DNA from: Xanthobacteraceae bacterium
GTDB taxonomy: Bacteria > Pseudomonadota > Alphaproteobacteria > Rhizobiales > Xanthobacteraceae
Length of the DNA stretch: 38,568 nt
Direction: 5' to 3'
NCBI GenBank assembly: GCA_019745775.1
Contig: JAIESR010000038.1
Coordinates: 1 to 38,568, forward strand
The notes under the pieces were generated by a model that worked only from the letters and a program-made list of their open reading frames with translations, did not search any database and had not been told where the DNA came from. Of this stretch, positions 1 through 29,103 are shown in pieces. Position 1 is the stretch's first letter; the number at the start of each line of letters is the position of its first letter. The position numbers and the translations under genes were made by a program.

Positions 1-2100
1 TAGATGCCGGTGGTCGAGCCAGCCGCGGCATTGGCGCCGATATTGTTGATCGTGAAGCTGACGCTTGTCCCGTTCAGGACAAGACTGCCCGCGGTCAGAT
101 CGGTCGTCGACGGTGGAGCGGAGAACAGGAAATCGCCGCTGACCAGGTTGTTCTTGTCGATATTCTCCAGTGCCAGCGTGTTGCCGCTGCCAAAGTCGAT
201 CACCGTGTTCGCGCCAACCTGCGTCGCCCGCGAGAGCACATCGGCCAGGCTATAGACCCCCGACACATTCCGCAGGTCGATCTCGTCGACGCCACCCGCC
301 CCGGCCGTGAAGTCCTTGATCGCGTCAGCGCCGGTCGAATAGACGAACGTATCGTCGTCAGTTCCGCCCCACATCGTGTCGTTGCCGGCGCCGCCATTTA
401 TGGTGTCGTCCCCGGCTTGGCCAAAGACGATATCCGCCCCGGACGTGCCGGTGAGCGTGTTGGCGCTGTCGTTGCCGAGGATGATCGGTACCGTATTCGA
501 CGCGTTGTTACTCTCGCTGCCCTCGGCGATCTGGCCGTTGTAGTCCGCCAGTACGCCGAGGTAATAGGTACCCGGTGCCAGGTTGCCCGGGAAGGTCAGT
601 GGCGTCCCCAGGTTCGCAGACCCGCCGGCGCTCAGCCCCGATGTGGCAATCGACGTTACCAACGTATCGGCACCCGTGATCGTGCTATCGGTCGACAGAT
701 AGATGCCGGCAGTCGAAGCCGACGCAGCCGCTGTCCCGATATTGTTGATCGTGAAGCTGATGCTGGCTCCATTCAGAGCAACGCCGCTTGCAGTCAAGTC
801 TGCCTGTGGCGGTGCTGGCGAGAACAGGAAGTCGCCGCTGACCAGGCTGTTTTTGTTGATATTGTCCAGCGTCAGCGTATTGCCGCCGCCAAAGTCGATG
901 ACCGTGTTCGCGCCAACCTGCACCGCGCGCGCCAGCACGTCGGCGAGGCTATAGACCCCCGACACCGAACGCAGGTCGATCTCGTCAACCCCGCCCGCCC
1001 CTGCGACAAAATCCCTGATTGCGTCAGCACCACTCGAATAGACGAACGTGTCGTCGCCTGCCCCGCCCCAAATCGCGTCGTTGCCGGCGCCGCCGTCGAA
1101 GGTGTCGTTGCCGTCGATGCCCCACAATTGATTGTCGGCACCGTCCCCGGTCAGCGTGTCGTTGAAGTTAGAACCGACCAGCCCCTCGATCGCGAGATAA
1201 GTGTCACCCGCGGCATCGCCGGTATTGCTCCCCGAGGTGGCCAGGCTTGCCGTGACCCCCATCGACGCGAACATGTAGCGAGCATAGTCGTACCCCGCGC
1301 CGCCGTCGTAAACGTCCGCGCCGGCACCGCCGTCCATCCGGTCGGTACCATCGCCACCCCGGATCAAGTCGTTACCGGCGCCACCATCAATCATGTCGTC
1401 GCCCGCCAACCCAAACAAGGTGTCCGCGGCAGAAGTCCCGGCGAGCGTGTTGGCGCTGTCGTTGCCGAGGATGAGCGCCGCTGTATTCGAGGCGTTATTA
1501 CTGTCACTGCTTTCGGCGACTTGGTTGTTATAGTCAGCCAGCACGCCGAGATAGTAGGTGCCCGGCGTCAGGTTGCCCGGGAACGTCAGCGTGGTTCCCT
1601 GCGCCACCGACGCGCCGGCCGCCAACCCCGATGTGGCCATCGTCGTCACCAGCGTGTCCGCACTGGTGATCGTGCCGTCGGTCGACAAATAGATACCGGT
1701 CGTCGAGGTCGCTGCGGCCTCGACACCCACGTTGTTGATCGTGAAGTCGATGCTGGTTCCGTTCAGGACAAGACCACTTGCGGTCAAGTCAGTGCCCGAA
1801 GGCGGCGCCGAGAACAGAAAGTCGCCGCTGACCAGGTTGTTCCGGTTGACGTTCTCCAGCGTCAGCGTGTTGCCGCTGCCGAAGTTGATCACCGTGTTCG
1901 CGCCAACCTGGGTCGCGCGCGCGAGCACGTCGGCGAGGTTGTAGACGCCCGACACACCCCGCAGGTCGATCTCGTCGACGCCACCTGCGCCGGCCGTGAA
2001 ATCCTTGATCGTGTCGGCGCCGGTCGAATACACGAACGTGTCGTCGGCGGCACCGCCCCACATCGTGTCGTTGCCGGCGTTGCCGTTGATCGTGTCATTG
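1..2100 (-). repeat. Long direct repeats encoding the RTX-linker/CARDB modules
   Basis: Three near-copies of a block encoding 'DDTFVYSTGAD.IKDF.AGAGGVDEIDLR.VSGVY' followed by 'TQVGANTVI.FG.GNTL' are centred near 181-380, 881-1080 and 1871-2070. The shared stretch beginning ttgccg at 181, 881 and 1871 puts the copies 700 and 990 nt apart. The longer spacing contains an extra RTX/linker segment of about 290 nt (roughly 1090-1430). CARDB-coding blocks lie between the copies (about 440-700 and 1440-1790), and a third begins at the window edge. The DNA similarity is high enough to allow recombination between units. Confidence 0.85.
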
Positions 2101-3242
2101 CCGTCGGCGCCGTCGATCGTGTCGGCGCCGTTGCCGCCCGACAGCACGTTGTTCGCGCTGTTGCCGTTGATCGTATCCGCGCCCGTGCCGCCGGTCGCGT
2201 TTTCGATCGTGCAGTTGAAGGCGATCGCGACGTTGTAGGTGAGATAGCCGATGTTGGAATACGATCCCGCGGTCAGGTTGATCAGCTGGTTGGTCGAATA
2301 GCCGGAGCAGTCGAGGGTGTCGGTGCCGCCGGAATCCCAGATCACCAGGATCGGGTCGGGGTTCTGCGCGAAATTGTACACGACCCGGTCGGCCGTCGCA
2401 TTGAAGCCGTAGACGGTGTCGCCGGTGCGCGTGGTCGTGTCGGCGCCATAGGCCGCCTGGATCGCCGCGATGTCGTGGAGCAGCGGGGTCTGTGCATATC
2501 TCCAGGCGCCGGTCGAGCCATAGTGATCGACGAACGATTCGGCCTCATTGGCATCGAAGTAGGACATCACCGTGTAGCGATGGCTGTCCTGCGCGTACTC
2601 GGCATTGTTGGCGTACGTGATGCTGCCGCCGTTGCCGGCGTCGTAGGTCCCGGGATGCGACAGGCCGAGCGTATGACCGATCTCATGCAGATAGGTCATG
2701 AAGCCGTAGCGGCCGAACGCCATGGAGGCGTCGGTGTTGTGCGAGTTCCAGCCGTTGTTCAGCCAGATGTAGGCGCGGGAGAACCCGAAATTGCCGCCGG
2801 ACGAGTAGCCGCTCCACTCGGCGTAGGTGCCGCCGCCCGAGGTGTTCGACGAATAATTGAAGGTGATGTTGGCGTTGGTGTTGCCGGGCGACTCGTTGAG
2901 GGTCAGGGCGATCAGGTCGTCCCACAGCTCGAATGCGAGCCGCGCCCGGTCCTCCATCAGCGGCGTCATGTTGACCAGGCCGGAGGCTTCCGACTGGCCG
3001 GTGACGGCGGTGTCGATGGAATAGCTGACGGTCGTCGTGTTGAGCCACGTCCAGGTCTTGCCTTCCTGGGTGCCGCCCCATTGCGTGCGCAGCTGCGTCT
3101 GGATCTGCGACAGCGTGAATACCGGAGGCGCGCTCGCGCCGCCGGTCACGGTGCCGTCATCGGCCGAGAAGCCGCCGCCGCTGCCCGCGCAGACCGGACA
3201 GGCGCATGTGAAGAAGTGCGTCTCGGAAGCGTCAGAGCTCAT
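1..3242 (-). CDS. Serralysin-like M10 zinc metalloprotease with RTX and CARDB repeats (C-terminus beyond window)
   Basis: Open frame from ATG 3242 to the window edge (about 1080 codons, no stop), so the C-terminal secretion signal is not visible. Residues 186-196 read HEIGHTLGLSH, the metzincin zinc motif HExxHxxGxxH, and the Met-turn VMSYFD has its Met at 226, so the catalytic centre is complete. After about residue 330 come calcium-binding RTX nonapeptides (GGxGxDxxx, for example GGAGNDTMWGG) alternating with CARDB-type beta domains ('FPGNL.PGTYYLGVLADYN'). There is no Sec signal peptide. Known family members leave the cell by type I secretion, and a PrtD/HlyD pair lies at 26015-29103. The N-terminus carries an unusual C13-x-C15-xx-C18 cluster. 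The start is set by the ATG that overlaps the TGA of a short upstream frame. The role as a secreted, calcium-dependent protease is inferred from the family; the substrate is unknown. Confidence 0.9.
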   Translation of the reverse strand, partial: MSSDASETHFFTCACPVCAGSGGGFSADDGTVTGGASAPPVFTLSQIQTQLRTQWGGTQEGKTWTWLNTTTVSYSIDTAVTGQSEASGLVNMTPLMEDRARLAFELWDDLIALTLNESPGNTNANITFNYSSNTSGGGTYAEWSGYSSGGNFGFSRAYIWLNNGWNSHNTDASMAFGRYGFMTYLHEIGHTLGLSHPGTYDAGNGGSITYANNAEYAQDSHRYTVMSYFDANEAESFVDHYGSTGAWRYAQTPLLHDIAAIQAAYGADTTTRTGDTVYGFNATADRVVYNFAQNPDPILVIWDSGGTDTLDCSGYSTNQLINLTAGSYSNIGYLTYNVAIAFNCTIENATGGTGADTINGNSANNVLSGGNGADTIDGADGNDTINGNAGNDTMWGGAADDTFVYSTGADTIKDFTAGAGGVDEIDLRGVSGVYNLADVLARATQVGANTVINFGSGNTLTLENVNRNNLVSGDFLFSAPPSGTDLTASGLVLNGTSIDFTINNVGVEAAATSTTGIYLSTDGTITSADTLVTTMATSGLAAGASVAQGTTLTFPGNLTPGTYYLGVLADYNNQVAESSDSNNASNTAALILGNDSANTLAGTSAADTLFGLAGDDMIDGGAGNDLIRGGDGTDRMDGGAGADVYDGGAGYDYARYMFASMGVTASLATSGSNTGDAAGDTYLAIEGLVGSNFNDTLTGDGADNQLWGIDGNDTFDGGAGNDAIWGGAGDDTFVYSSGADAIRDFVAGAGGVDEIDLRSVSGVYSLADVLARAVQVGANTVIDFGGGNTLTLDNINKNSLVSGDFLFSPAPPQADLTASGVALNGASISFTINNIGTAAASASTAGIYLSTDSTITGADTLVTSIATSGLSAGGSANLGTPLTFPGNLAPGTYYLGVLADYNGQIAEGSESNNASNTVPIILGNDSANTLTGTSGADIVFGQAGDDTINGGAGNDTMWGGTDDDTFVYSTGADAIKDFTAGAGGVDEIDLRNVSGVYSLADVLSRATQVGANTVIDFGSGNTLALENIDKNNLVSGDFLFSAPPSTTDLTAGSLVLNGTSVSFTINNIGANAAAGSTTGI

Positions 3243-13487: not shown

Positions 13488-14297
13488 GTGAACTTCGGCG
13501 CACAACAAGGTCCGGTCGAGATTGCGACCGCGGATATCGTCGCGGGCTTGCGGGGCTATCGCCTGCCGGCGCTCCTGGGCTGGTACGACGTCAAATTGCG
13601 ATACCGCCGATCGACGCTCGGCCCGTTCTGGCTGACGATCAGCATGGCCGTCATGATCGGCGCGATGGCGCTGGTCTTCGGGCAGATTTTCGGCCAGCCC
13701 CTCGCCGACTTCCTGCCGTTCCTCTGCGCCGGCCTGATTGTCTGGGGCTTCATCGCGGCGATGCTGACGGAAGGCTGCATGAGTTTCATCTCGGCCGACT
13801 ACATCATCAAGGAACTGCCGCTTCCGTTGTTCTCACATATCTTGCGGGTCTATTTCCGAAACACGCTGATCCTTTTGCATAACATCATCATCCTGCCGAT
13901 CGTGCTCCTTGCTTTCGGCAAAGGTTTTCCGCTCACGAGCCTGCTCAGCCTTGTCGGCTTTGTCCTTGTGTCGTTGAACCTGCTCTGGATGGCGCTGCTG
14001 ACGAGCGTGCTTTGCACACGCTATCGCGACATGCCGCCGATCATTTCGAATGTCGTGCAGATCGGGTTCTACCTGACGCCCATCATCTGGCCGCCCCACC
14101 TGCTGCCGGGACGGGCTTCTTTGATCGTCGACTTGAACCCGCTCGCACACATCGTTGCCGTGGTGCGAGACCCTTTGCTTGGGCAAATGCCAACAACGCT
14201 CAATTGGACCGTGACTTTCGCTATCGCGATTGTCGGATGGGCGGTCACCATCGTGTTCTACGGTTCCTACAAGCGGCGTATCGCGTATTGGCTCTGA
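13488..14297 (+). CDS. wzm: ABC-2 type polysaccharide exporter permease (Wzm/KpsM-like)
   Basis: 269 residues from GTG 13488. The ABC2_membrane plan is visible: an amphipathic N-terminal segment ('LRGYRLPALLGWYDVKLRYRRSTLGPFWLT', where 'RYRRS.LGPFW' is the usual start of Wzm proteins), then six hydrophobic helices and a basic C-terminus ('YGSYKRRIAYWL'). 'RYRDMPPIISNVVQIGFYLTPIIWPP' is the conserved RD...P..YLTPI.W block before the last helices. It would form the membrane channel that moves a finished polyprenyl-linked glycan across the inner membrane, paired with the ATPase that starts 29 nt downstream. The symbol follows function; the exact glycan is unknown. Confidence 0.92.
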   Translation: MNFGAQQGPVEIATADIVAGLRGYRLPALLGWYDVKLRYRRSTLGPFWLTISMAVMIGAMALVFGQIFGQPLADFLPFLCAGLIVWGFIAAMLTEGCMSFISADYIIKELPLPLFSHILRVYFRNTLILLHNIIILPIVLLAFGKGFPLTSLLSLVGFVLVSLNLLWMALLTSVLCTRYRDMPPIISNVVQIGFYLTPIIWPPHLLPGRASLIVDLNPLAHIVAVVRDPLLGQMPTTLNWTVTFAIAIVGWAVTIVFYGSYKRRIAYWL

Positions 14298-14326
14298 TCC
14301 GATCGAAGTCTGGGAACGAGATACCG

Positions 14327-15076
14327 ATGACATCTATAACCCTGGACAAGGTGATCGTCGATTTCCCGATCTACAATTCAAGCCATCGGTCGCTTAGGAA
14401 TGCGCTCGTGCAGGTCGCAACCGGCGGCCTCATCGGCGAACGCGAAGACGGCCGCGTTGTCATACGCGCGCTCGACAACATCAATCTCTCGCTGGCGGAC
14501 GGCGATCGCCTCGGCATCGTCGGCCATAACGGCTCGGGCAAGACGACTTTGCTCCGCGTGCTTTCCGGCGTCTATCATCCGCCCTACGGGACCGTTCGCG
14601 TCGACGGCGCCGTCACGGCGCTGCTGAATGTCTCGCTGGGCACCGACGCGGAAGCAACCGGACGCGAAAACATTCGGCTGCGCGGCGCCATGCTCGGCAT
14701 GTCTGCGCGGGACATCGAGAAGGTCACCGACGAAATCGCGGAATTCACCGAGTTGGGAAACTTCCTGGATGTTCCAGTTCGCGCCTATTCGTCCGGCATG
14801 CAACTCCGGCTGACGTTCGCGATCGCGACGGCATTGCGGCCGGAAATTCTGCTATTGGACGAGTGGCTGTCCGTCGGCGATGAGGGGTTTCGCGCCAAAG
14901 CAGAGCGCCGGCTGAACGAGATGATCGAGTCGACAAGAATTCTGGTCCTGGCCAGCCATTCGAAAGAGCTGATAGCGAGGATGTGCAACCGCGTGCTTTG
15001 GCTGGAGCATGGCCGCGTCCGCATGGACGGCGATAGCGCAACTATCGTCAGGTCTTATTTTGGTGCGAGTTCTTGA
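14327..15076 (+). CDS. wzt: ABC polysaccharide exporter ATP-binding subunit, short Wzt/KpsT type
   Basis: 249 residues from ATG 14327 with a GGGAACGAG stretch as ribosome-binding site; the frame open further upstream overlaps the permease gene and is not homologous. Walker A GHNGSGKTT (66-74), signature YSSGMQLRL (153-161) and Walker B ILLLDEW (173-179) are all intact. 'LLNVSLGTDAEATGRENI' is the region typical of the Wzt/TagH/KpsT subfamily. The protein ends soon after the D-loop and H-loop ('LVLASHS') with no C-terminal carbohydrate-binding domain. It therefore belongs to the short type that does not read a chain terminator. It energises the Wzm permease encoded just upstream. Confidence 0.92.
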   Translation: MTSITLDKVIVDFPIYNSSHRSLRNALVQVATGGLIGEREDGRVVIRALDNINLSLADGDRLGIVGHNGSGKTTLLRVLSGVYHPPYGTVRVDGAVTALLNVSLGTDAEATGRENIRLRGAMLGMSARDIEKVTDEIAEFTELGNFLDVPVRAYSSGMQLRLTFAIATALRPEILLLDEWLSVGDEGFRAKAERRLNEMIESTRILVLASHSKELIARMCNRVLWLEHGRVRMDGDSATIVRSYFGASS

Positions 15077-17813: not shown

Positions 17814-18626
17814 GTGTTCTCGCTCGATCACCTTCGCACAATCCGAGAGGCTAAGATTGAAAAGTTCACACCGCTGTTTTCGCCGCAGGCACGGATCCTC
17901 GAAATCGGGGCGGGCACAGGGCAACAGGCGTTGACGCTGGCCCAGCGCGGGTTCGATGTCGTCGCGATTGAGATCGCCGACTCGACCTACAAGGATGCCC
18001 GCGTATTTCCCGTAACCGAGTATGACGGCCGACACATTCCGGAAAACGATGCAAGCATCGACATTGTATTCTCTTCCAACGTTCTCGAGCATGTACCGGA
18101 CCTTCATCAATTGAACGGCGAAATTCGTCGTGTGCTCAAGCCTGGCGGCTACTGCGTGCACATCATGCCAACCCACAGCTGGAGATTCTGGACAACACTG
18201 TCAGCGTTTCCGGATGCGCTCCTGTATGCCGCGACGCTTCGGTCGCAATTGGTCCCCCACCCCAGCAACGGGCTGGGCATGTTCAGGCAACTCGCTCAAG
18301 GCTGGTGGGGTGCCACGAAGCATCTGAGCAGACCTTTCAGACAAGTCCGCCATGGCGAGCAAGGAAATCTTATTTCGGAAACGTGGCTCTTTCATCCGAA
18401 CCGGTGGCGCCGGGTATTTGCGGAGGATGGATTTGAGGTGGTTCGAGATTTCCCTATGGGCCACTTCTATACCGGAAACATGCTCTTCGGGGCCCGGATG
18501 TCCATGGCGACACGGGAGCGGCTTGCAACTATCCTCGGGAGCGCCTGCCACCTGTTCCAAGTCCGCCCGACCGCGCATCACGCGATCTCTAACGACGGCC
18601 CGGCAACCGCTGCCTCCGCCCCCTGA
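17814..18626 (+). CDS. Class I SAM-dependent methyltransferase
   Basis: 270 residues from GTG 17814; the ATG at 17806 is in another frame. Motif I ILEIGAGTGQQALTLA (28-43) is followed by 'GFDVVAIEIADSTYKDARVFPVTEYDGRHIP', 'IDIVFSSNVLEHVPDL' and 'EIRRVLKPGGYCVHIMPTHSWRFWTTL', a block typical of Methyltransf_11 enzymes in O-antigen and exopolysaccharide loci. It follows the GT4 gene by 21 nt, so the two are probably cotranscribed and may act on the same intermediate. Its last 49 nt overlap the end of the convergent amidotransferase gene. Confidence 0.85.
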   Translation: MFSLDHLRTIREAKIEKFTPLFSPQARILEIGAGTGQQALTLAQRGFDVVAIEIADSTYKDARVFPVTEYDGRHIPENDASIDIVFSSNVLEHVPDLHQLNGEIRRVLKPGGYCVHIMPTHSWRFWTTLSAFPDALLYAATLRSQLVPHPSNGLGMFRQLAQGWWGATKHLSRPFRQVRHGEQGNLISETWLFHPNRWRRVFAEDGFEVVRDFPMGHFYTGNMLFGARMSMATRERLATILGSACHLFQVRPTAHHAISNDGPATAASAP

Positions 18627-20530
18627 TCGACCCACATGCGAAACCAAAGTTCAAGCATCAGCAGCGGCCAGAGCCGATACTGGTGATTGTACTGTCCACC
18701 TGTATGCTCATCGAGCAATTGCCGCACATAATCCCGCCGGAAGATGCTCCTGGCTGTTGCTGAGTCACTCAGCAGCACATCGTACGCCATGTCCTTGAGC
18801 TCGGCCCGGAACCAGTGATCGATTGGCGCGCCAAATCCCATCTTCGGGCGATAAAGCAGTTCGTGCGGCAGATATGGCTCCATTGCCTTCTTGAACACCG
18901 CCTTGGTCAGGCCGCCCGCCATCTTCTTGCTTTCCGGAATGGTCATTGCCCACTCCATAAAGGTGTGGTCGAGCAGCGGGGAACGAGACTCAAGACCGTG
19001 AGCCATGCTTGCGATGTCAACTTTCACCATGAGGTTGTCAGGTAGATACGTATGAATATCCGCCCAGTTGGCGCCGGTGACCAATGATGGCGCCTCCTCG
19101 AAGTAGGGCTCCAACAGGTCAAGAGCGGACTGCGAGAGATGTTCGCTCATCGCCGGCGTGTAACCTTGCTGCTTCATGTATTCCATGAACGACACGATGG
19201 TAAACTCATAGCGCTTGCTTGGGCGCCGGTCGGAGCCCGCAATCAAATCGCCAAAAGCAGTCAGGCGGTTACCGTAGCGTTCGTGCACCGACTGGGGCAA
19301 TGCCCGGATCCCCCATTTGGACAGCTTGCGCATCCACGGCGGCATCCAATCGAAAGGCGACATGCGCCTGCACGAATCATAGCGGCCGTATCCCATGAAC
19401 GCCTCGTCGCCCCCGTCCCCGTTCAGGGCGACCGTGACCTTGCGTCGCGCGATTTCAGAGACGTAGTAGGTCGGAACCGCGGACGGGTCCGCAAACGGCT
19501 CGCCGTAGTGCCAGACCAGGCGTGACAAGACGGAGAGCGCGTCGGGCTCCACGATGAACTCTTGATGGTCCGTGCCGTAGCGTTCCGCCACCATGCGCGC
19601 GTAGCGCGTCTCGTCGTACTCCTTGTTGGGGAAGCCGATCGAGAAGGTCTTGACCGGGCCGTGGCCAAGACCGGCCATCAGCGCGACCACCGACGACGAA
19701 TCCACGCCCCCCGACAGGAACGCGCCGAGCGGCACGTCCGAGATCAAACGCAGCTTGACCGACTCGCGCAGGCGGTCGACCAGTTCGGCCGCGAGATCCG
19801 CCGTTGACGCTGGCGTCTTGGGCGCGGTCGGCAGCGGCAGCCGCCAATACTGGACCTGCTCGTTTTCCGCCCACCCGCCAGCGGAACGTTCGACCGTGAG
19901 ATAGTGCGCGTTGCGGAGCTTCCTGATCGACGCGAACGCCGTGCGCGGCGCCGGCACATATTGCAGCGACAGGTACTGATCGATCGCGACATAGTCGGGC
20001 GTGCGATCGACCTGCGGCCAGGCGAGGATCGCCTTGATTTCAGAGCCGAACACCAACGCGTCGCCGACGCGCGCATAGCAGAGCGGCTTCTTGCCAAGGC
20101 GGTCGCGCACCAGCAGGAGCTTCTGGTCGGCCGCGTCCCACAGCGCGAAGGCAAACATGCCGCGCAGCCGGTCGACGACGCGCTCGCCCCAGGCGAGATA
20201 GCCATAGATGATCACTTCGGTGTCTGACTGGCTGCGGAAGCTATAGCCCTTCGCCTGCAGCTCGGCGCGCAGCTCCTTAAAATTATAGATCTCGCCGTTG
20301 AAGCTGATCCAGACGCGGCCGTCGGCGCTGCCCATGGGCTGATGACCGCCGGGCGTCAGATCGATGATCGAGAGCCGCGCATGCGCCAGGCCGCACACGC
20401 CGTCGTTCCAGACACCCTGATCGTCGGGACCGCGGTGACGCAGCGGCGCGATCATGCCCCGCAGGCGCTGATCGATATCAAATGGCGGACGGCCCGAGCC
20501 CAGCCATAGAAAGCCGCTAATTCCGCACAT
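18578..20530 (-). CDS. asnB: Asparagine-synthase-like glutamine amidotransferase
   Basis: 650 residues. The start is ATG 20530 because it places Cys2 (MCGISGF) at the N-terminus, as needed for the Ntn glutaminase; it overlaps the upstream GT4 gene by 14 nt. The glutaminase domain (2-~205) shows RHRGPDDQG (31-39), 'FNGEIYNF' (77-84) and 'SDTEVIIYGY'. The synthetase domain shows the PPi-loop SGGVDSS (273-279) and 'ALNGDGGDEAFMGYGRY'. All catalytic parts look intact. Family members make asparagine or amidate other carboxylates by adenylation; those in polysaccharide loci are thought to amidate uronic acids or linked amino acids. It is the last gene of the apparent operon 25622-18578. The symbol reflects the family, not a proven asparagine-forming role. 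Confidence 0.9.
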   Translation of the reverse strand: MCGISGFLWLGSGRPPFDIDQRLRGMIAPLRHRGPDDQGVWNDGVCGLAHARLSIIDLTPGGHQPMGSADGRVWISFNGEIYNFKELRAELQAKGYSFRSQSDTEVIIYGYLAWGERVVDRLRGMFAFALWDAADQKLLLVRDRLGKKPLCYARVGDALVFGSEIKAILAWPQVDRTPDYVAIDQYLSLQYVPAPRTAFASIRKLRNAHYLTVERSAGGWAENEQVQYWRLPLPTAPKTPASTADLAAELVDRLRESVKLRLISDVPLGAFLSGGVDSSSVVALMAGLGHGPVKTFSIGFPNKEYDETRYARMVAERYGTDHQEFIVEPDALSVLSRLVWHYGEPFADPSAVPTYYVSEIARRKVTVALNGDGGDEAFMGYGRYDSCRRMSPFDWMPPWMRKLSKWGIRALPQSVHERYGNRLTAFGDLIAGSDRRPSKRYEFTIVSFMEYMKQQGYTPAMSEHLSQSALDLLEPYFEEAPSLVTGANWADIHTYLPDNLMVKVDIASMAHGLESRSPLLDHTFMEWAMTIPESKKMAGGLTKAVFKKAMEPYLPHELLYRPKMGFGAPIDHWFRAELKDMAYDVLLSDSATARSIFRRDYVRQLLDEHTGGQYNHQYRLWPLLMLELWFRMWVDQGAEAAVAGPSLEIA

Positions 20531-21698
20531 GCATTGTGGTTTTCGTCTGCACGCCGCCCCGATGGCCCTGCTGCGAAATTTCCCGGTACAATGTCTCGTA
20601 TAGCAGACATACCCGGTCAATGCCGAATTGATCCACGGCGCGGGCCCGCGCCTGCTGGCCCATCATCTGCGATTCCGGTGACATCGCCATGTTCCAGCCG
20701 CGCGCCAGCGCTTCGGGATCACGCGGTGGAAAGATCAGCCCGGTATCCGCAACAATGGCGCGACTATCGCCGACATCGGTCGCGACGCAGGGAATGCCGC
20801 AAGCCATCGCTTCGATGAGCACGTTGGGGAATCCCTCGCCGTAAGCGGAAGACAGCGCGAGGACATCGAACGCAGGATAGACGGCCTCCATATCGTTGCG
20901 CACGCCCAACAGGTGGACCCGATCGGTCAATCCTGCCTGGGCGACCAACGCAGAGACCTCGCCGTTGCGATGAAAGCCATCGCCGCACGCGACAAAGCGG
21001 CAATTCGGATGGGAATCGGCAAACAGGCGCGCCGCACGCAAGAAGGCCGGGACGTCCTTCATGGGATGAAGGCGCGCCACGTATCCGATAACTGGATCGT
21101 CGACGCCCGCCCCGATCTCCTGCCGCAGCCGACGCCGCGCCTCCGGACGCGGACGGAAGCGCTCGGTGTCTACGCCATTCGGAATGCCGACCCATTGGCG
21201 CGGACGATAGCCGACTGCCTCGTGATACTGCCTCCCCGCATCCGAATTGCAGACGACCGCCTGCGGCCACGCGGACATGCGCGCGAGCAGCTTGACCAGC
21301 CAGCGCAAATGTCCGGCCTCCGATTGCCCTGGCAGATCGGAACAGCGGATATTCCAGATTAGGGCCGACTCCGGCGCCGCCCGCGACGCAAGCGTCGCGG
21401 CGAGATCGGCATGATAAAGCCAGCTCTGTATGATCGCCGGCCTCGACCGCCGAAGATGGCGAACCAGCGCGAGCATCCCTGATATGGATGGCCGGCCGCG
21501 CCGCATGGCGAGGTTGATGACCGGGATTCCAACGGCGGCGAGCTCGGACGCCATCACGCCCGGCTCGATCAGCGATATGACCTCGTTGCGGAACCGCGCG
21601 CGGTCCAGGCGCGTGACCAGGTTGACGAGCATCCGTTCCGCCCCGCCCGCGTTCAGATCGGTGATGACGTGACAGACGGAGATCAAGGAGCCCCTCAA
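20517..21698 (-). CDS. Family 4 glycosyltransferase
   Basis: 393 residues from TTG 21698; the next in-frame TTG (MISVCHVITDL) is a possible alternative. Standard GT4 features: VCHVITDLNAGGAERMLVNL (8-27), 'IIQSWLYHADLAATLAS', 'VGIPNGVDTERFRP' (170-183), 'VIGYVARLHPMKDVPAFLRAA' and GEGFPNVLIEAMACG (287-301) with the donor-binding E-x7-E pattern. 'SWLYHAD' and 'IRCSDL' recur in GT4 enzymes of exopolysaccharide loci. It lies 21 nt after the methyltransferase and overlaps the amidotransferase by 14 nt, so it is tightly coupled to both. Sugar specificity unknown. Confidence 0.88.
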   Translation of the reverse strand: MRGSLISVCHVITDLNAGGAERMLVNLVTRLDRARFRNEVISLIEPGVMASELAAVGIPVINLAMRRGRPSISGMLALVRHLRRSRPAIIQSWLYHADLAATLASRAAPESALIWNIRCSDLPGQSEAGHLRWLVKLLARMSAWPQAVVCNSDAGRQYHEAVGYRPRQWVGIPNGVDTERFRPRPEARRRLRQEIGAGVDDPVIGYVARLHPMKDVPAFLRAARLFADSHPNCRFVACGDGFHRNGEVSALVAQAGLTDRVHLLGVRNDMEAVYPAFDVLALSSAYGEGFPNVLIEAMACGIPCVATDVGDSRAIVADTGLIFPPRDPEALARGWNMAMSPESQMMGQQARARAVDQFGIDRVCLLYETLYREISQQGHRGGVQTKTTMHVRN

Positions 21699-21719: not shown

Positions 21720-22367
21720 CTAGGTAGTCGAGTGGGGCCGGCGAAGTGCCACATCGTAGAGCGCCATCGGATCGTAGGCAAACCACGCAAATTCCCATCC
21801 CTTGCTCACCGCAAAATCGACCACCGCACGGTGCACACCATAGGCGCCGAGAAACGGGTCCATGTGCGCAAAATCGTTGAACACGAGATATCCGCCTTTC
21901 TTGACCTTCGCAGCGGCCGCGTTCGCGTCACGGGTGACGCCGGTGTAGGAATGATCCGCGTCGATATAGATCCAATCGAAGTGCTCGTCCGGAAACGCCG
22001 CCAGCAGCTCGTGTGAGCTGCCTTCGTGAAGATGAACGCGCTGGTTTTCCCGGAGCGCCGGCAACAGCGCGGAAAAATCGAGATCGATGAGATGGAGGCT
22101 GACCGGCGAGCATACGGCAAGGATGTGCTGCGCGAACTCGCCCTTGTCGGTTCCTATTTCGGCAACCCTGCCGCCGCGGGGAAGCGCCGCCACCAGCTCG
22201 TACCGGGACGCGCACATTCGACAGTCCGCGAGCAGCCTTCCTGGCAGCGTTGCCGACGCCGCGCCCCGGGTGACGGCATGCCGCGCCAGCCTGAGTGTGC
22301 GCCTGACCCACGAGGGGAGATTTTTACGAAGCTTGAGAGTTAAGCCGTCGAGCCGCATTTCTTGCAT
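21720..22367 (-). CDS. Class I SAM-dependent methyltransferase, Methyltransf_24 type
   Basis: 215 residues from ATG 22367; a TTG at 22391 would add eight residues and an ATG at 22358 would remove three. After a basic N-terminal segment ('LKLRKNLPSWVRRTLRLARHAV') the fold shows VAEIGTDKGEFAQHIL (68-83), 'SLHLIDLDF', 'FDWIYIDADHSYTGVTRD' and 'GGYLVFNDFAHMD'. The 'YIDADHSY..v..D' motif marks the Methyltransf_24 group. It lies between the A-T-TE gene (57 nt upstream) and the GT4 gene (21 nt downstream) in one apparent operon. Besides methylating a sugar, it could act on the group activated by the A-T-TE enzyme. Confidence 0.82.
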   Translation of the reverse strand: MQEMRLDGLTLKLRKNLPSWVRRTLRLARHAVTRGAASATLPGRLLADCRMCASRYELVAALPRGGRVAEIGTDKGEFAQHILAVCSPVSLHLIDLDFSALLPALRENQRVHLHEGSSHELLAAFPDEHFDWIYIDADHSYTGVTRDANAAAAKVKKGGYLVFNDFAHMDPFLGAYGVHRAVVDFAVSKGWEFAWFAYDPMALYDVALRRPHSTT

Positions 22368-22424
22368 CAGCCTGGGAGCATTTGAGTACAAGATCTAGCG
22401 CAAAGCGACCGGCGACAACTGAGA

Positions 22425-25400
22425 CTAGCGGCCGGTCATCTTGGCAATCAACTGACGCGTCCAACGGAGCGCCGCGGTGACGCGCCAGCTAGTTGAGCTC
22501 TCCATCGCCTCAAGCTTGGTGGCAAGCGCCGCGCCAATCTCCTCGCACGCCGCAAGCCTGGCGCGCAGCTCTGCCTTCTCTCGCTCCCATCCCGCCAGCT
22601 TTCCTCTCTGCTGCGCAGCTTCTTCCACCACCGTGAAGCGCAGCTCAGCCGCGGAGCCATTGCCGGACAACACGAACAGCCGCGGCCGCTCCGTTACGCC
22701 TGGCACGGCGCCGCGCCAGAAAGTGAGATCGAACCCCGCGAATTCCAGCGCAGCTAAGGAAAACTGTTGCGCAATATCGGAACGCGCGGTCCCGCTCGCG
22801 CCATGGCCGAGAAATCGGTCCCCAAGGAAGACCGCGATGATCTGCGCTGGCTTTCGTCGGCAATGATCGACCGCCCAGCCACCAAACCTTACTGCTTCAC
22901 CGTCGGTTGTCACGGTATCAACGTAGCCTTGGATGGCCGCTTCATCGATTGAATAGACCTCGCCCGTGGAGCTTAGAATCGCCTCGCGACCTGCCCGCGA
23001 ATCAAGTTGATAGGAGCGTCCGAATACGGATTCGGGATCGCTGGCGTTCATCGGCTCTCGGTTCAGACATGCTTGCAAAAGAGTGGGCAGTATTGCGTAT
23101 TGTGGTCCACGGCCGGTCCAGCCATGCAGCCCCGGCAATGGCAATAACCGGAATTGGTGGGCGAACCTTTCCCACAAGCGCCGACGGTCCTGGCCCGCGA
23201 CGATAGGCTCACCGGTGCAATAGAAGTAGGTGAGCTCACCTCGGAAGACATCGCGCTCTGATCGGTCACCCAGGCTATGGTGTCGGCTAGCTTTCCAATG
23301 AGCCTGGATAACACGATAGTTGAACGCCTCTATCGGATTTCGAGGCGGAGGGAGTTCCTTGAGAAGCTGGCGAGACACGTTCGCTTCGCCTTCGTCGGAG
23401 CACCTCGAGGGATATGTGTCCAGCAGCCCGAGGAACTCGACCGGCTCGCCCGCCTCTTGCAACTGGAGGGCAATTTCAAACGCTAGTCGCCCGCCGAAAC
23501 TATGGCCCATCAAGCGATACGGCCCACGCGGCCGGACCGATTGTATGATGCTCAAATAGTGTGCGGCCATTTCTGGAATCGTGCTGCAACCCGCGGTCGC
23601 CCAATCCATCCTGGGTGGTTGTAGACCATAACAGGGCTGATCAGCACCTAGAGCATGCAGGACGGAATAGAGATACAGACAGTAGCCACCCGTACCACCT
23701 ATGACGAACAGTGGGCGCTGTGAACCTTTGGTATGGATGCGAATCGTATTGTCGTCCGGCCCCACTGTTCGCGCTTCAATGTGCTGTGCCAACTGCCTGA
23801 CGGTTGGCGCCTCGACCAGCAGGTTCACAGGCAATTGATACTGCAATCTCTCTTCGATGCGACTGATGAGGTCCACGGCAGAGAGCGAGTCGCCGCCGAA
23901 CAGGAAAAAGTCGTCGTCGATCCCAATGTCCCGACGCCTGAGCACATCGCGCCATAGCGGCAACAGCAGCTCTTCAATTTCGTTGACATCCGCGACGGCT
24001 GCTTCGGGCTGGGATCGCGTTTCCGCAGCATTGAGCACCAGCGCAAAATGGCTCGCTAATTCTTTACGGACAAACTTCCCCGTTGGCCCTTTTGGCAATT
24101 CAGCGGCGCAGATAATCACGCGCGGAACTTTGAATGGCGCCAATCGCTGCATCAGGTAGCGGCGCAGTTCCTGAGTCGTCGCCTTCGTACCTTGCCGAAG
24201 TACAACGGCAGCCGCAATTTCCTGATGAAGCGTTGGATGCGACATGGGAAAGCTGACGGCTTCCGCAACGGCTTCATGCGCGAGCAGCGCATCATCAACT
24301 TCACGCGGGGAGATCTTCTCGCCGCCGCGGTTTATGACCTCGTCGTGACGTCCAAGGAGCCTGACGTAACCTTCGGCATCAATGACAGCTTGATCGCCTG
24401 TCCGGTACCATTCGCCACGAAAGACGCGCTGATTGGCGGCTTGATCGTTTTCATAGCCCTCAAAGACGATTGGACCGCGCACAACGACTTCGCCTTCTTG
24501 GCCGGCCTCGAGTACGTTGCCGTCATCATCCATGATTGCGATATCGTTGTCCGGCGAGGCGCCAACGGTACCCGGCTTCCTCTTGCCCACCAGCGAATTG
24601 GCAGCGACATTCCCGGTCTCGGTCGTGCCGTAGACCTCGAGCAGAGGCACGCCAATAATCTTCTCCATGCCCGTCCGAACATCGGCCGCCAGCGGACCCG
24701 AGCCCGCGCGCATGAAGCGAAGCCGATGGCCGTCCAAGACGTTCGGCCGCTGCTGCAGCCATTCAAGGATGGCTTGATGATAGGTGAAGCTCGCGGTGAA
24801 CCAAGTGGGCGAATAGTCACGCATGCAGGCAAGGAACGTCTGGACGTCGAATGCCGGCGGACATATGACGGCACTGCCGGCGACGAGCGGCAACATCAGC
24901 CCGGCATTCAGCCCGTGATGATAACAAAGGGGCATCAGATTCAGGCAGCGGTCGCCCGGCCTCAGACTGAACAGTCGTTGCGACTTTTCGGTTCGCGCCA
25001 CGATGTTGCGATGACTGATCGGCACGATCTTCGACCGCGCTGTCGTGCCCGACGTTCGCAAGACGAAGGCAACGTCACTGCTTAGAGCGGGGCCGCCGTG
25101 CGCGACGACCCTCGAGGGACCGCCCTGAATTCGAAATTGGCCCGCCGGCTCAGTTTCGTCCGTTGTATATTCCAGCAAGACGATATTGGCACGGCGGGCC
25201 AGATCCTTCACGTCGGCGGAAGCAGTTGCCGGCACCAGCAGTGCTCTTGCCCCGGTCTCCGCCAAGCCAAGTTGCACCTCCGCCAACGGTGCGTTGGGGT
25301 TCATGGGCACACAGACGGCGCAACATGCAACGCCGAGCAGCGCCGCCGCAGTTTCCGGCCCACGCGCCCCAAGGACCGCAACACGATCGCCGCGTCCTAG

Positions 25401-25622
25401 TCCGCAGCCATTGAGGGTCGTTCGCATGTCAACAAACTGATTCAGTAACGCTCCAAAATCGAGCGGGACGCGGCCGAGTGCAAAGAGCGCCGCAGCACCG
25501 GGATTCAGCTGAGCCTGATGGGAGAGCAACTCGTATAGACTGCTCGGCGACGCTCCAGCCCGTGGAGTTGCTGCAGGAAAGTCATTGGCGGCAGAGTCAG
25601 TCGACGAGAAAACAGCTGACAC
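22425..25622 (-). CDS. NRPS-like adenylation-thiolation-thioesterase protein with a glycan-enzyme-type C-terminal tail
   Basis: 1065 residues from GTG 25622. Adenylation domain about 30-525: A3 LRTSGTTARSKIV (188-200), A5 YGTTETG (331-337), A7 YRTGD (406-410), A8 GRHDEVINRGGEKISPREVD, A10 PTGKFVRK with Lys516. The carrier domain has FGGDSL (575-580), Ser579 being the phosphopantetheine site. Thioesterase about 636-850: GHSFGG (706-711) with Ser708, likely Asp735 and His833. There is no condensation or reductase domain. The rest is not NRPS-like: a 'GGWAVD...PA.IIAVFLGD' module (899-1000), a coiled coil (about 995-1040) and ESSTSWRVTAALR (1041-1053), a tail otherwise common on polysaccharide glycosyltransferases. 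It could activate an acyl, keto or amino acid and hand it to a glycan or release it. The substrate is not readable by eye. It is first in a probable operon with a methyltransferase, GT4 and AsnB. Confidence 0.85.
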   Translation of the reverse strand: MSAVFSSTDSAANDFPAATPRAGASPSSLYELLSHQAQLNPGAAALFALGRVPLDFGALLNQFVDMRTTLNGCGLGRGDRVAVLGARGPETAAALLGVACCAVCVPMNPNAPLAEVQLGLAETGARALLVPATASADVKDLARRANIVLLEYTTDETEPAGQFRIQGGPSRVVAHGGPALSSDVAFVLRTSGTTARSKIVPISHRNIVARTEKSQRLFSLRPGDRCLNLMPLCYHHGLNAGLMLPLVAGSAVICPPAFDVQTFLACMRDYSPTWFTASFTYHQAILEWLQQRPNVLDGHRLRFMRAGSGPLAADVRTGMEKIIGVPLLEVYGTTETGNVAANSLVGKRKPGTVGASPDNDIAIMDDDGNVLEAGQEGEVVVRGPIVFEGYENDQAANQRVFRGEWYRTGDQAVIDAEGYVRLLGRHDEVINRGGEKISPREVDDALLAHEAVAEAVSFPMSHPTLHQEIAAAVVLRQGTKATTQELRRYLMQRLAPFKVPRVIICAAELPKGPTGKFVRKELASHFALVLNAAETRSQPEAAVADVNEIEELLLPLWRDVLRRRDIGIDDDFFLFGGDSLSAVDLISRIEERLQYQLPVNLLVEAPTVRQLAQHIEARTVGPDDNTIRIHTKGSQRPLFVIGGTGGYCLYLYSVLHALGADQPCYGLQPPRMDWATAGCSTIPEMAAHYLSIIQSVRPRGPYRLMGHSFGGRLAFEIALQLQEAGEPVEFLGLLDTYPSRCSDEGEANVSRQLLKELPPPRNPIEAFNYRVIQAHWKASRHHSLGDRSERDVFRGELTYFYCTGEPIVAGQDRRRLWERFAHQFRLLPLPGLHGWTGRGPQYAILPTLLQACLNREPMNASDPESVFGRSYQLDSRAGREAILSSTGEVYSIDEAAIQGYVDTVTTDGEAVRFGGWAVDHCRRKPAQIIAVFLGDRFLGHGASGTARSDIAQQFSLAALEFAGFDLTFWRGAVPGVTERPRLFVLSGNGSAAELRFTVVEEAAQQRGKLAGWEREKAELRARLAACEEIGAALATKLEAMESSTSWRVTAALRWTRQLIAKMTGR

Positions 25623-26014: not shown

Positions 26015-27790
26015 TTGCTGCAACGTCCGACCACCAGCGGCCAGCCTGTTCATACGTCCCTGACAGCGGTCCTGGGCGACTGCAAGCGCGCGTTCTGGGG
26101 CGTCGCGCTGTTTTCGGCCATCGTCAATCTGCTGATGCTGGCCGGCCCGATCTACATGCTGCAAATCTACGACCGCGTGCTCGCCAGCCGCAGCGTGTCG
26201 ACCCTGGTGGCGCTCACGATCTTCCTGGTCGGCGCCTACGCGTTCCAGGGCCTCCTCGACATGATCCGCTCGCGCATCGTGGTGCGCGCGACCGGCCTGC
26301 TCGACGACCGGCTGGGCGAAACCGTCCACCGCGCGGTGATCGCGCTCGGCGCCCGCGGCGGCAATGCCGCGCAGGCGCATCAGCCGCTGCGCGATCTCGA
26401 TCAGATCCGTTCGTTCATGACCGGCGCGGGCCCGGTTGCGATCGTGGACTTGCCGTGGATTCCGTTCTTTCTCGCGATCTGCTTCCTGATCCATCCCTGG
26501 ATCGGGATGCTGGCGCTGGCCGGCGCAATCATCCTGGTCGTCATCACCATCCAGACCGAGCGCGCGAGCCGCGGCCTCGCCAAGGCCGTCAACGAGACCA
26601 GCGGCCTGCGAACGACGATGGTCGAATCCGGCCGGCGCAACTTTGCCTCGGTCATTTCGATGGGAATGGCGGGCGCACTCGCCGCACGCTGGGCCAAGGT
26701 CAACGAACGGCATGTCGAGTCCGTCGGCCGCTCGAGCGACGTGGTCAATTCCTATGGCAGCCTCACCAAGGTGCTGCGCCTGCTGATGCAGTCGGCGATC
26801 CTCGGCCTCGGCGCCTATCTGGTGATCCGGCAGGAAATGACGGCGGGCGCGATGATCGCCGCCTCGATCATGATGGGACGCGCACTCGCACCGATCGAGA
26901 CCGCCATCGGCAACTGGCGCGGCTTCGTCGCGGCCCGCGACAGCGTCAGGCGCCTTTCGGCCACCCTCGCCCGCCTGCCGGCGGAACGCGGCGTCACCGA
27001 TCTGCCGAAACCGACCAGCACGCTCTCGGTCGAGAACGTAACGGTGGCCGCGCCGAACACGACCAGCGCAATCCTGACCAACGTCCATTTCCGCCTCGCC
27101 GCCGGCGAGGTGCTGGGCGTGATCGGGCCCAACGGGTCCGGCAAGAGCTCGCTCGCGCGCGTGATCCTCGGAATCTGGCCGCCGGCGCGCGGATCGGTCC
27201 GTCTCGACAATGCCGCGCTCGATCAATGGGACCCCGACGCGCTCGGGCGGCATGTCGGCTACATGTCGCAGATGGTCGAATTGTTCCCCGGCACCGTGGC
27301 CGAAAACATCGCGCGCATGGCGCCGGAGCCCGACAGCGCCGCGGTGCTGCGCGCCGCGCAGGCGGCGGGCGCCCACGACATGATCCTGCGGCTTTCGGGC
27401 GGCTACGACACCGTGCTGGGCGACGGCGGTGAAGGCCTCTCGATCGGACAGCAGCAGCGGATCGCGATCGCCCGCGCGCTTTACGGCGATCCGTTCCTGG
27501 TCCTGCTCGACGAGCCGAGCGCCAGCCTCGACGGCGAGGGCGAAGCTGCCCTGCAAAACGCCGTCAAACAACTGAAGTTGCGCCGTGCCATTGTCATCGT
27601 GGTCGTGCACCGGCGATCGGCGCTCGCATTATGCGACAAGGTGCTGGTGCTTCTGAACGGCCAGCAGCGCGATTTCGGCCCGCGCGACGACGTGTTGCGG
27701 CGAATGTCCGCACCGCAACCGTCGGCGGCCGCGGCGGCGGGCGCCAATCTCAAAGTCGTGGGCGATCCTCCAAGGGAAGAGCGGGGATGA
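26015..27790 (+). CDS. prtD: Type I secretion ABC transporter, PrtD/AprD family
   Basis: 591 residues from TTG 26015 with GGGGATGA upstream; the ATG at 26007 is in another frame. A membrane domain with about six TM helices (starting 'FWGVALFSAIVNLLMLAGPIYMLQIYDRVL', diagnostic of the PrtD/HlyB group) is followed by an ATPase domain: Walker A GPNGSGKSS (from about 370), signature LSIGQQQRIAIARAL (about 475) and Walker B VLLDEPSASLD (about 496). It lacks an N-terminal C39 peptidase or C39-like domain, as usual for exporters of serralysins and other RTX proteins. Its stop overlaps the ATG of the adaptor gene (ATGA). The outer-membrane TolC partner is not in the window. The metalloprotease at the left edge is a plausible substrate. 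Confidence 0.9.
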   Translation: MLQRPTTSGQPVHTSLTAVLGDCKRAFWGVALFSAIVNLLMLAGPIYMLQIYDRVLASRSVSTLVALTIFLVGAYAFQGLLDMIRSRIVVRATGLLDDRLGETVHRAVIALGARGGNAAQAHQPLRDLDQIRSFMTGAGPVAIVDLPWIPFFLAICFLIHPWIGMLALAGAIILVVITIQTERASRGLAKAVNETSGLRTTMVESGRRNFASVISMGMAGALAARWAKVNERHVESVGRSSDVVNSYGSLTKVLRLLMQSAILGLGAYLVIRQEMTAGAMIAASIMMGRALAPIETAIGNWRGFVAARDSVRRLSATLARLPAERGVTDLPKPTSTLSVENVTVAAPNTTSAILTNVHFRLAAGEVLGVIGPNGSGKSSLARVILGIWPPARGSVRLDNAALDQWDPDALGRHVGYMSQMVELFPGTVAENIARMAPEPDSAAVLRAAQAAGAHDMILRLSGGYDTVLGDGGEGLSIGQQQRIAIARALYGDPFLVLLDEPSASLDGEGEAALQNAVKQLKLRRAIVIVVVHRRSALALCDKVLVLLNGQQRDFGPRDDVLRRMSAPQPSAAAAAGANLKVVGDPPREERG

Positions 27791-29103
27791 GCAACACCGG
27801 CGAACTGCACCGCAAGATCCGCAAGCTCAATCTGATCGGGCTTGGGACCATCGCGATACTCGTCTTCGGCATCGGCGGCTGGGCGGCGGTCGCGCAACTG
27901 GCCGGCGCCGTGATCGCGCCCGGATTCGTCGTGGTCGAATCGAACGTCAAGAAGGTGCAACATCCGAACGGCGGCATTGTCGGACAGATCTTCGTCCGCG
28001 ACGGCAGCGTGGTGGAAGAAGGCCAGATTCTCGTACGTCTCGACGACACGGTGCCGCGCGCCAATCTCGGCGTCATCCGCTCGCAGCTTGACGAGCTCAC
28101 CGCCCGGCACGCCCGCCTGACCGCCGAACGCGACAACGCGGAGGTGATTTCGTTCCCGGAGGAACTGACCAATCGCGGTGGCGAAACCCAGGTGGCGAGC
28201 GCGATCAGCGGCGAGCAGAAGCTCTTCGAGTCGCGACGGCAGTCCCGGCTCGGTCAGCGCGCGCTGCTCCAGGAGCGTATCGCCCAGATCGTCGAGGAGG
28301 TGCGCGGGCTGTCCGCGCAGCGCAAGGCGAAGGAAGGCGAAATCAGCCTGATCAGCGAAGAGCTCAAGGGTGTCGCCGAGCTCTATGCGAAGAACCTGGT
28401 CAGCATCATGCGCTACATGTCGCTGCAGCGCGACAAGACGAAGATCGAAGGCGAGCACGGCCAGCTCGGCGCCGAAATCGCGCGGGCGCGAGGCCGTACC
28501 AGCGAGATCGAGCTGCAGATCATCCAGCTCGAAAAGGACTTCGTCACCGAGGTCCTGAAGGAGCTCCGCGATATCGACGGCCGGGTTGCGGAACTCAAGG
28601 AACGCATGATTGCCGCCGTGGACCAGCTGCGCCGCATCGACATCCGCTCGCCCGGGCATGGCACCGTGCTCCAGCTCACCGTTCACACCGTGGGCGGCGT
28701 GATCGGCGCCGGCGAAACCATCATGCTGATCGTCCCGCAGGCCGACCAGCTCGTCGTCGAGGCGCGCGTGGCCCCGGTCGACATCGACCAGATCGTCATG
28801 GGCGCCCCGGTGCAGGTCCGGATCCAGGCCGGAAACCAGCGCACCACCCCGTCCGTGACCGGCAAGGTCACGCACATATCGGCCGACCTGACGCGCGAAG
28901 CCGCCAGCGGCGGACAGCCCGCCCAGGCCTACTTCCTGACGCGCGTCTCGCTGGACGAGGAATCGGTGAAGAGCCTCGGAGACCTCAAGCTCGTGCCGGG
29001 GATGCCGGCGGAAGCCTTGATCGAGACCGGCGTGCGCACGCCGCTCGAGTTCCTGCTGAAGCCGCTGCAAGAGCAGATCGCCCGCACGTTCCGCGAACGC
29101 TGA
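27787..29103 (+). CDS. prtE: Type I secretion membrane fusion protein, HlyD/PrtE family
   Basis: 438 residues from ATG 27787; the four-base overlap with the transporter stop fixes the start, and the longer upstream frame runs inside prtD. One TM helix near 16-38 ('LIGLGTIAILVFGIGGWAAVAQLAG') is followed by 'VIAPGFVVVESNVKKVQHPNGGIV', the usual HlyD start of the barrel/lipoyl region. Then come a long coiled-coil hairpin (about 100-280) with 'LYAKNLVSIMRYMSLQRDK', and 'RIDIRSPGHGTVLQL' returning to the lipoyl and barrel domains. It bridges the inner-membrane ABC pump and an outer-membrane channel. It is cotranscribed with prtD. Confidence 0.92.
   Translation: MSNTGELHRKIRKLNLIGLGTIAILVFGIGGWAAVAQLAGAVIAPGFVVVESNVKKVQHPNGGIVGQIFVRDGSVVEEGQILVRLDDTVPRANLGVIRSQLDELTARHARLTAERDNAEVISFPEELTNRGGETQVASAISGEQKLFESRRQSRLGQRALLQERIAQIVEEVRGLSAQRKAKEGEISLISEELKGVAELYAKNLVSIMRYMSLQRDKTKIEGEHGQLGAEIARARGRTSEIELQIIQLEKDFVTEVLKELRDIDGRVAELKERMIAAVDQLRRIDIRSPGHGTVLQLTVHTVGGVIGAGETIMLIVPQADQLVVEARVAPVDIDQIVMGAPVQVRIQAGNQRTTPSVTGKVTHISADLTREAASGGQPAQAYFLTRVSLDEESVKSLGDLKLVPGMPAEALIETGVRTPLEFLLKPLQEQIARTFRER

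Follow-up and report, generated by a model that had tools for sequence, protein, structure and literature searches.

Organization of the locus

We analysed a 38,568-nucleotide stretch of DNA (the window) on contig JAIESR010000038.1 of a Xanthobacteraceae bacterium (assembly GCA_019745775.1), focusing on one gene whose product resembles a nonribosomal peptide synthetase (NRPS). The protein joins adenylation (A), carrier (T) and thioesterase (TE) domains to a module that we call GWA, a predicted coiled coil and a C-terminal STSWR tail (Table 1). A GTG at position 25622 starts a single open frame of 1065 codons, in a frame open from 25670, and no strong ribosome-binding site was seen by eye upstream of this GTG. 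Scanning for promoters and terminators gave no signal, with 3 promoter-like sites (2.2 in shuffled sequences) and 3 terminator-like sites (6.1 in shuffled sequences).

Pfam identified AMP-binding (residues 34-390), AMP-binding_C (441-516), PP-binding (552-615) and Thioesterase (636-752), in this order and all above the curated cut-offs, and found no condensation domain in the 1065-residue protein. With a carrier serine and a Ser-Asp-His triad in the TE domain, this is the make-up of an NRPS-like A-T-TE enzyme. S708, D735 and H833 are invariant in an alignment of four T-TE-GWA proteins, and a distant fifth relative, from genome G1166, has Ser, LLD and HHG at these positions. The GxSxG motif and the half of the fold that follows it are shared with the NRPS type I TEs (7crn, E 8.3e-21, and EntF, 2roq/3tej); however, the match spans approximately the first 110 profile positions, and the C-terminal half diverges before the GWA module begins. 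Further downstream lie GGWAVD (within residues ~895-997), a heptad-like stretch (~1006-1040) and SSTSWRVTAALR (1042-1053). The heptad score of this stretch, which was picked by eye, was equalled in 51 of 5000 shuffles. A single-sequence AlphaFold2 (AF2) model predicts helices at ~1002-1041 and 1046-1063 with per-residue confidence (pLDDT) mostly between 65 and 89; its mean pLDDT is 45.4, and it is unusable outside these C-terminal helices. The open frame, the Pfam matches and the motifs bear out the anatomy proposed in an earlier, sequence-only reading of this DNA, that is, Ser579, Ser708, no condensation domain, GGWAVD, a coiled coil and STSWR.

The gene heads an operon-like run with the methyltransferase, GT4-type glycosyltransferase (GT) and AsnB-type genes, which are separated by short gaps or overlap. 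Elsewhere on the contig are GT2 and GT4 genes, several methyltransferases, Wzy_C, Polysacc_synt_2, a UDP-sugar dehydrogenase, an epimerase and a WecA-like gene; here and in the loci compared below, GT-like and other neighbours without a Pfam match were named by eye. These surroundings are an O-antigen-type locus. The contig end truncates an RTX/serralysin-like frame that contains CARDB (positions 3-3149, minus strand of the window), and the type I secretion pair may export its product. Within the same genome, the protein has 22 other matches, confined to the A domain at 24-32% identity, the GWA module occurs once, and a stringent nucleotide pattern of the tail matches this gene and two places that do not spell S-S-W-R.

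Table 1. Positions of the enzyme, its domains and selected neighbouring genes in the window
Feature	Position	Strand	Basis
A-T-TE-GWA-coiled coil-STSWR protein, 1065 aa	22425..25622	-	Open reading frame, Pfam
Adenylation domain, residues 34-516, oxalate-CoA-ligase-like clade	24075..25523	-	Pfam, tree, alignment
Carrier (PP-binding) domain, residues 552-615, S579	23778..23969	-	Pfam, motif
Type I thioesterase domain, ~residues 636-850, S708/D735/H833 (Pfam span 636-752 only)	23073..23717	-	
GWA module, residues 895-997, G...GWA...R.D....GF, without Pfam family	22632..22940	-	
Predicted coiled-coil helix, residues 1006-1040	22503..22607	-	Heptad score, AF2 helices
STSWR tail, residues 1043-1065	22428..22496	-	
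S-adenosylmethionine methyltransferase (Methyltransf_24), next gene, same direction	21720..22391	-	Pfam
GT4-type glycosyltransferase, next gene	20517..21698	-	
AsnB-type glutamine-dependent amidotransferase, N-terminal MCGI, 14-base overlap with the GT gene	18578..20530	-	
ABC-2 permease and ATPase, O-antigen-export-like pair	13488..15076	+	
Type I secretion ABC transporter and HlyD adaptor, divergent neighbours	26015..29103	+	

Adenylation domain and putative substrate

The nearest solved structures to the A domain are the oxalate-CoA ligases 6qjz, 5ie0 and 8aff (E 1.8e-79 to 1.1e-70), which we take to be the grass pea, Arabidopsis AAE3 and yeast Pcs60 enzymes. The similarity spans the whole ligase (residues 29-520 for 6qjz and 5ie0), and the INRGGEKISP motif and a non-Gly A3 core are shared; unlike these ligases, the window protein is fused to T, TE, GWA and tail. 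Where the three solved enzymes have SCSA/SCSS and TEA[TS]H, the window protein has AGSG and TETGN, and the ligase FHVHG reads CYHHG. With its pocket motifs changed in this way, oxalate is not favoured as the substrate. The best NCBIfam model for the domain, a FadD7-type ligase, scored far below its cut-off. In the A domains of NRPSs, the Asp of the FDAS motif binds the amino group of the substrate. Because His235 occupies this position in an alignment with two NRPS A domains (L062 and L063), an alpha-amino acid is an unlikely substrate.

The A3 core, SGTTARSK, had been read earlier as atypical and as a possible mark of an unusual substrate. Inspected by eye, the 18 clade relatives lack the Gly in 15 cases and the Pro in two, and none combines both changes. 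The variant is mostly typical of the clade, which leaves it a weak substrate marker. In a tree of 29 A domains, that of the window protein is sister to the A domain of the G1166 relative (L077), with support of 100/99.

The STSWR tail

Searching 150 genomes with a tail pattern gave 8 matches, compared with 4 for the control, and a version requiring Pro gave 25 matches against 6 control matches in 299 genomes. Judged from translations by eye, 13 of these 25 follow a coiled-coil-like stretch within a long frame and 11 do not, one (L107) being unclassified. Among the 8, those of the window protein, L047 and L050 do so as well, L050 belonging to both sets. The window protein combines the heptad-like stretch with S[ST]SWR[LIVMF]Tx[PA]LR, having Ala where the stricter pattern demanded Pro. 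GT, methyltransferase, sulfotransferase or PIG-L (deacetylase) domains are carried by 13 of the 14 other tailed proteins, two of the sulfotransferase calls being below the Pfam cut-off; the remaining protein, L115, has no Pfam match. These counts support the earlier claim that such tails recur on glycan-type enzymes. The tailed GTs, methyltransferases and sulfotransferases share with the window protein a heptad-like stretch followed by S[ST]SWR[LIVMF]T; they differ in that the catalytic part of the window protein is a thiotemplate enzyme. In some tailed proteins the tail is internal and is followed by GT domains.

The GWA module

The pattern G...GW[AI]...R.D...F is present in the window protein, and its R.D part is lost in L077. 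When ten examples of the module were compared with Pfam, three gave single weak matches (best E 0.055), and a comparison with the Protein Data Bank gave nothing significant, with best E values of 0.33 (A1) and 0.078 (A6). The similarity of the module to the amidase 8c4d falls short of significance (E 0.33 and 0.091). Across the surveys 1901 genomes were counted, in overlapping samples. Since the GWA profiles are narrow, the numbers of genomes with a match, the source genome included, are lower bounds: at least 2 of 347 in the order, 2 of 385 in the class and 4 of 299 in the phylum, and at least 2 of 20 in the genus of G239.

The module recurs in varied protein contexts. It is C-terminal in the GT8-like protein L040 (Pfam E 4.1e-4, short of the cut-off) and in a small lipoprotein-like protein (L071) encoded close to a carrier-like protein and to one that combines acyltransferase and phosphopantetheinyl-transferase domains. 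It is also found at the C-terminus of membrane proteins in lipopolysaccharide (LPS)-type loci of Azospirillum oryzae and A. lipoferum, beside asnB, GTs and methyltransferases; the AsnB proteins of A. oryzae and of the window share 37% identity. Such Azospirillum membrane proteins, at L084:6345-8273 and L085:6288-8267, are polytopic, annotated as hypothetical and members of no Pfam family. The module also begins two GWA/coiled-coil proteins (L074 and L075), whose loci contain RTX, HlyD-like and GT genes. L078 and L079, loci in which HlyD-like, RTX and GT genes accompany GWA/coiled-coil proteins, resemble the window in content.

Relatives of the enzyme

One of three matches outside the source genome among the 299 genomes of the phylum is the 1497-residue frame L077 in G1166, which is 36% identical over residues 45-1010 of the window protein. 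It continues from A-T-TE-GWA into a sulfotransferase-like part, a coiled-coil-like stretch, an SSRGWR motif and further repeats. The sulfotransferase-like part, for which Pfam gives no match, aligns with four sulfotransferases at an hhalign probability of 96 (E 4.4e-9). The gene adjoins a Sulfotransfer_3 gene and, on the opposite strand, a GT2 gene. No match was found in six other genomes of the genus (1 of 7).

A same-family search covered 391 genomes, of which 87, the source genome included, had a match at E 1e-60 or better. Twenty-nine relatives from this search (L010-L038) were compared by sequence. Among the matches listed, only G080, G239 and G251, besides the window protein, align past residue 860, that is, share the GWA module. 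In the tree of 29 A domains, those of G080 and G239 group with two NRPS A domains (100/99), both branches being flagged as long; G251, whose A domain is only a fragment at a contig end, was not included. The window protein groups with G080, G239, G251 and L077 (82/92) in a tree built from 16 TE domains, and the grouping that includes two NRPS TEs has support of 97/97, the L077 branch being flagged as long. Because the two trees place G080 and G239 differently, the T-TE-GWA core seems to have been joined to different A domains. The C-terminus of G080 is SASWLDVTRGLW, without a coiled coil; this may be what is left of the STSWR tail or a shortened version of it.

Nine more distant A-T-TE relatives were viewed with their neighbourhoods, G036 and G183 with Pfam support and the rest by eye. 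Three lie clearly amid glycan genes: G036 (polysaccharide deacetylase, GT4), G183 (DegT, ABC-2 permease) and G184:C335. Six relatives (G036, G184:C335, G183, G339, G364 and G219) share the A clade (37-42% identity) and the A-T-TE order with the window protein but have a GxC[NL]G motif in the TE domain, with Cys replacing Ser, and no GWA or STSWR motif was found in them. The GxC[NL]G nucleophile motif was noted in the A-T-TE proteins L010, L013, L014, L016, L024 and L028. A tblastn search of plasmids with the whole protein (2901 records) gave no match with 80% coverage, two of 20 listed matches being looked at more closely, and a contig scan of genomes gave one relative, whose A domain is 25% identical.

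Proposed function in glycan acylation

We propose, with about even confidence, that the protein acts in surface-glycan synthesis as a glycan acyltransferase that both loads and transfers the acyl group by itself. This proposal is based on the intact core and catalytic triad, the kinship of the tail, the GWA module in LPS-type loci and on a GT8-like protein, the fusion in G1166, the O-antigen-type surroundings and the three of nine A-T-TE relatives that lie amid glycan genes. The A domain would adenylate a small acid, probably not an alpha-amino acid, which would then be loaded onto the phosphopantetheine of S579. The TE serine would accept the acyl group and transfer it not to water but to a sugar or lipid-linked glycan, at a hydroxyl or amine, and the GWA module and the coiled-coil tail would anchor the enzyme at the glycan or at its assembly enzymes. 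The tail may have an equivalent role on glycosyltransferases, methyltransferases and sulfotransferases. In Dlt- and RfbL-type acyl decoration, separate A and carrier proteins operate with acyltransferases. The likeness lies in placing a carrier-activated acyl group on a surface polymer, whereas here a single chain with a TE would do so. A literature search limited to titles and the beginnings of abstracts, with most subscription papers outside its scope, returned no A-T-TE enzyme in glycan synthesis.

A more specific version is distinctly more tentative: held by GWA and STSWR, the TE would move the acyl group from the carrier on site to the glycan as it grows, exchangeable A domains, as in G080 and G239, would supply different decorations, and the AsnB-type enzyme would amidate a free carboxylate of the decoration. 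If a glycan acyltransferase is indeed encoded here, thiotemplate chemistry would be tied directly to surface-glycan assembly in one polypeptide, the way in which bacterial glycans acquire unusual acyl groups could be tested, and the GWA module, which has no Pfam family, and the tail would be named as recurring on glycan-associated enzymes.

Several observations weigh against the acyltransferase proposal. No glycan genes were seen beside G080, G239 or G251 (3 of 3) in the stretches available, two of which are short contigs (3.4 and 5.3 kb for G239 and G251). G080 has Phosphonate-bd, DUF2147, Lactamase_B and Amidohydro_2 genes as neighbours, G239 has MmgE/PrpD and one gene without a Pfam match, and G251 has an amino-acid permease. 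Even with the shortness of two contigs, these neighbourhoods count against a strict glycan tie of the core. None of the three carries the coiled-coil tail; in G239 and G251 the protein ends directly behind the GWA module, and the following 66 codons encode no tail in any frame. The A domains of G080 and G239 belong to another clade, that of G251 being fragmentary, and the same A clade joined to a GWA module was found in only one further genome of the 299 from the phylum. Among the nine A-T-TE relatives, three (G339, G127 and G184:C344) are not near glycan genes and three (G364, G219 and a Gemmobacter plasmid) have ambiguous neighbourhoods, all judged by eye. The neighbours of the GT8-like L040 are mostly unrelated to glycans, the 14 other tailed proteins include no A-T-TE enzyme, and the TE itself may merely hydrolyse or cyclise. 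The glycan link drawn in the sequence-only reading is supported as regards the locus, the tail and the G1166 relative, and not as regards the same-family T-TE-GWA proteins; all three of these touch its proviso that close homologues might lie mainly outside glycan loci, with two on short contigs. The tail survey it suggested supported the recurrence on glycan-type enzymes but yielded no further A-T-TE carrier.

A-T-TE proteins without a condensation domain are known to make small molecules. The window protein could likewise be a stand-alone NRPS-like enzyme that frees a small metabolite by hydrolysis, dimerisation or lactone formation, its place in a glycan locus being due to chance or co-regulation and its tail only localising or stabilising it. 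The three T-TE-GWA relatives without glycan neighbours would agree with this, but the operon-like run with GT, methyltransferase and AsnB-type genes, the tail kinship with glycan-type enzymes and the core fused to a sulfotransferase-like part in the distant relative do not, and we hold it to be possible at perhaps half the weight of a glycan acyltransferase. Rather unlikely, in our judgement, is that an RTX protein exported by type I secretion is the target of the locus and that the enzyme acylates a glycan on this protein instead of LPS: the ABC transporter and HlyD genes adjoin the gene, an RTX/serralysin-like frame lies in the window, and two other loci join RTX protein, HlyD-like and GT genes with a GWA/coiled-coil protein (partly by eye), but the ABC-2 permease/ATPase pair, the Wzy_C protein and the WecA-like gene of the window point to a lipid-linked glycan. 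An enzyme that activates keto acids, like the aryl-pyruvate dimerising synthetases of the atromentin/ralfuranone type, would have the identical A-T-TE order and could account for His235 in place of Asp at the amino-group position, but the nearest solved relatives are oxalate-CoA ligases, and we consider it improbable.

Other thiotemplate proteins

Further proteins were observed during the comparison of relatives. In many genomes of one genus (g24), a frame of ~2150 residues begins with an A-T part of the same A clade and continues, judged by eye, into a condensation-like part and a further A domain (L017, L019, L021-L023 and others). An A-T protein fused to a sulfotransferase domain is encoded at L066:8890-11766 and L067:8030-10906, the domain being supported by Pfam for L066 and recognised by eye for L067, and the L066 gene adjoins one for a TubC-condensation-T-TE protein.

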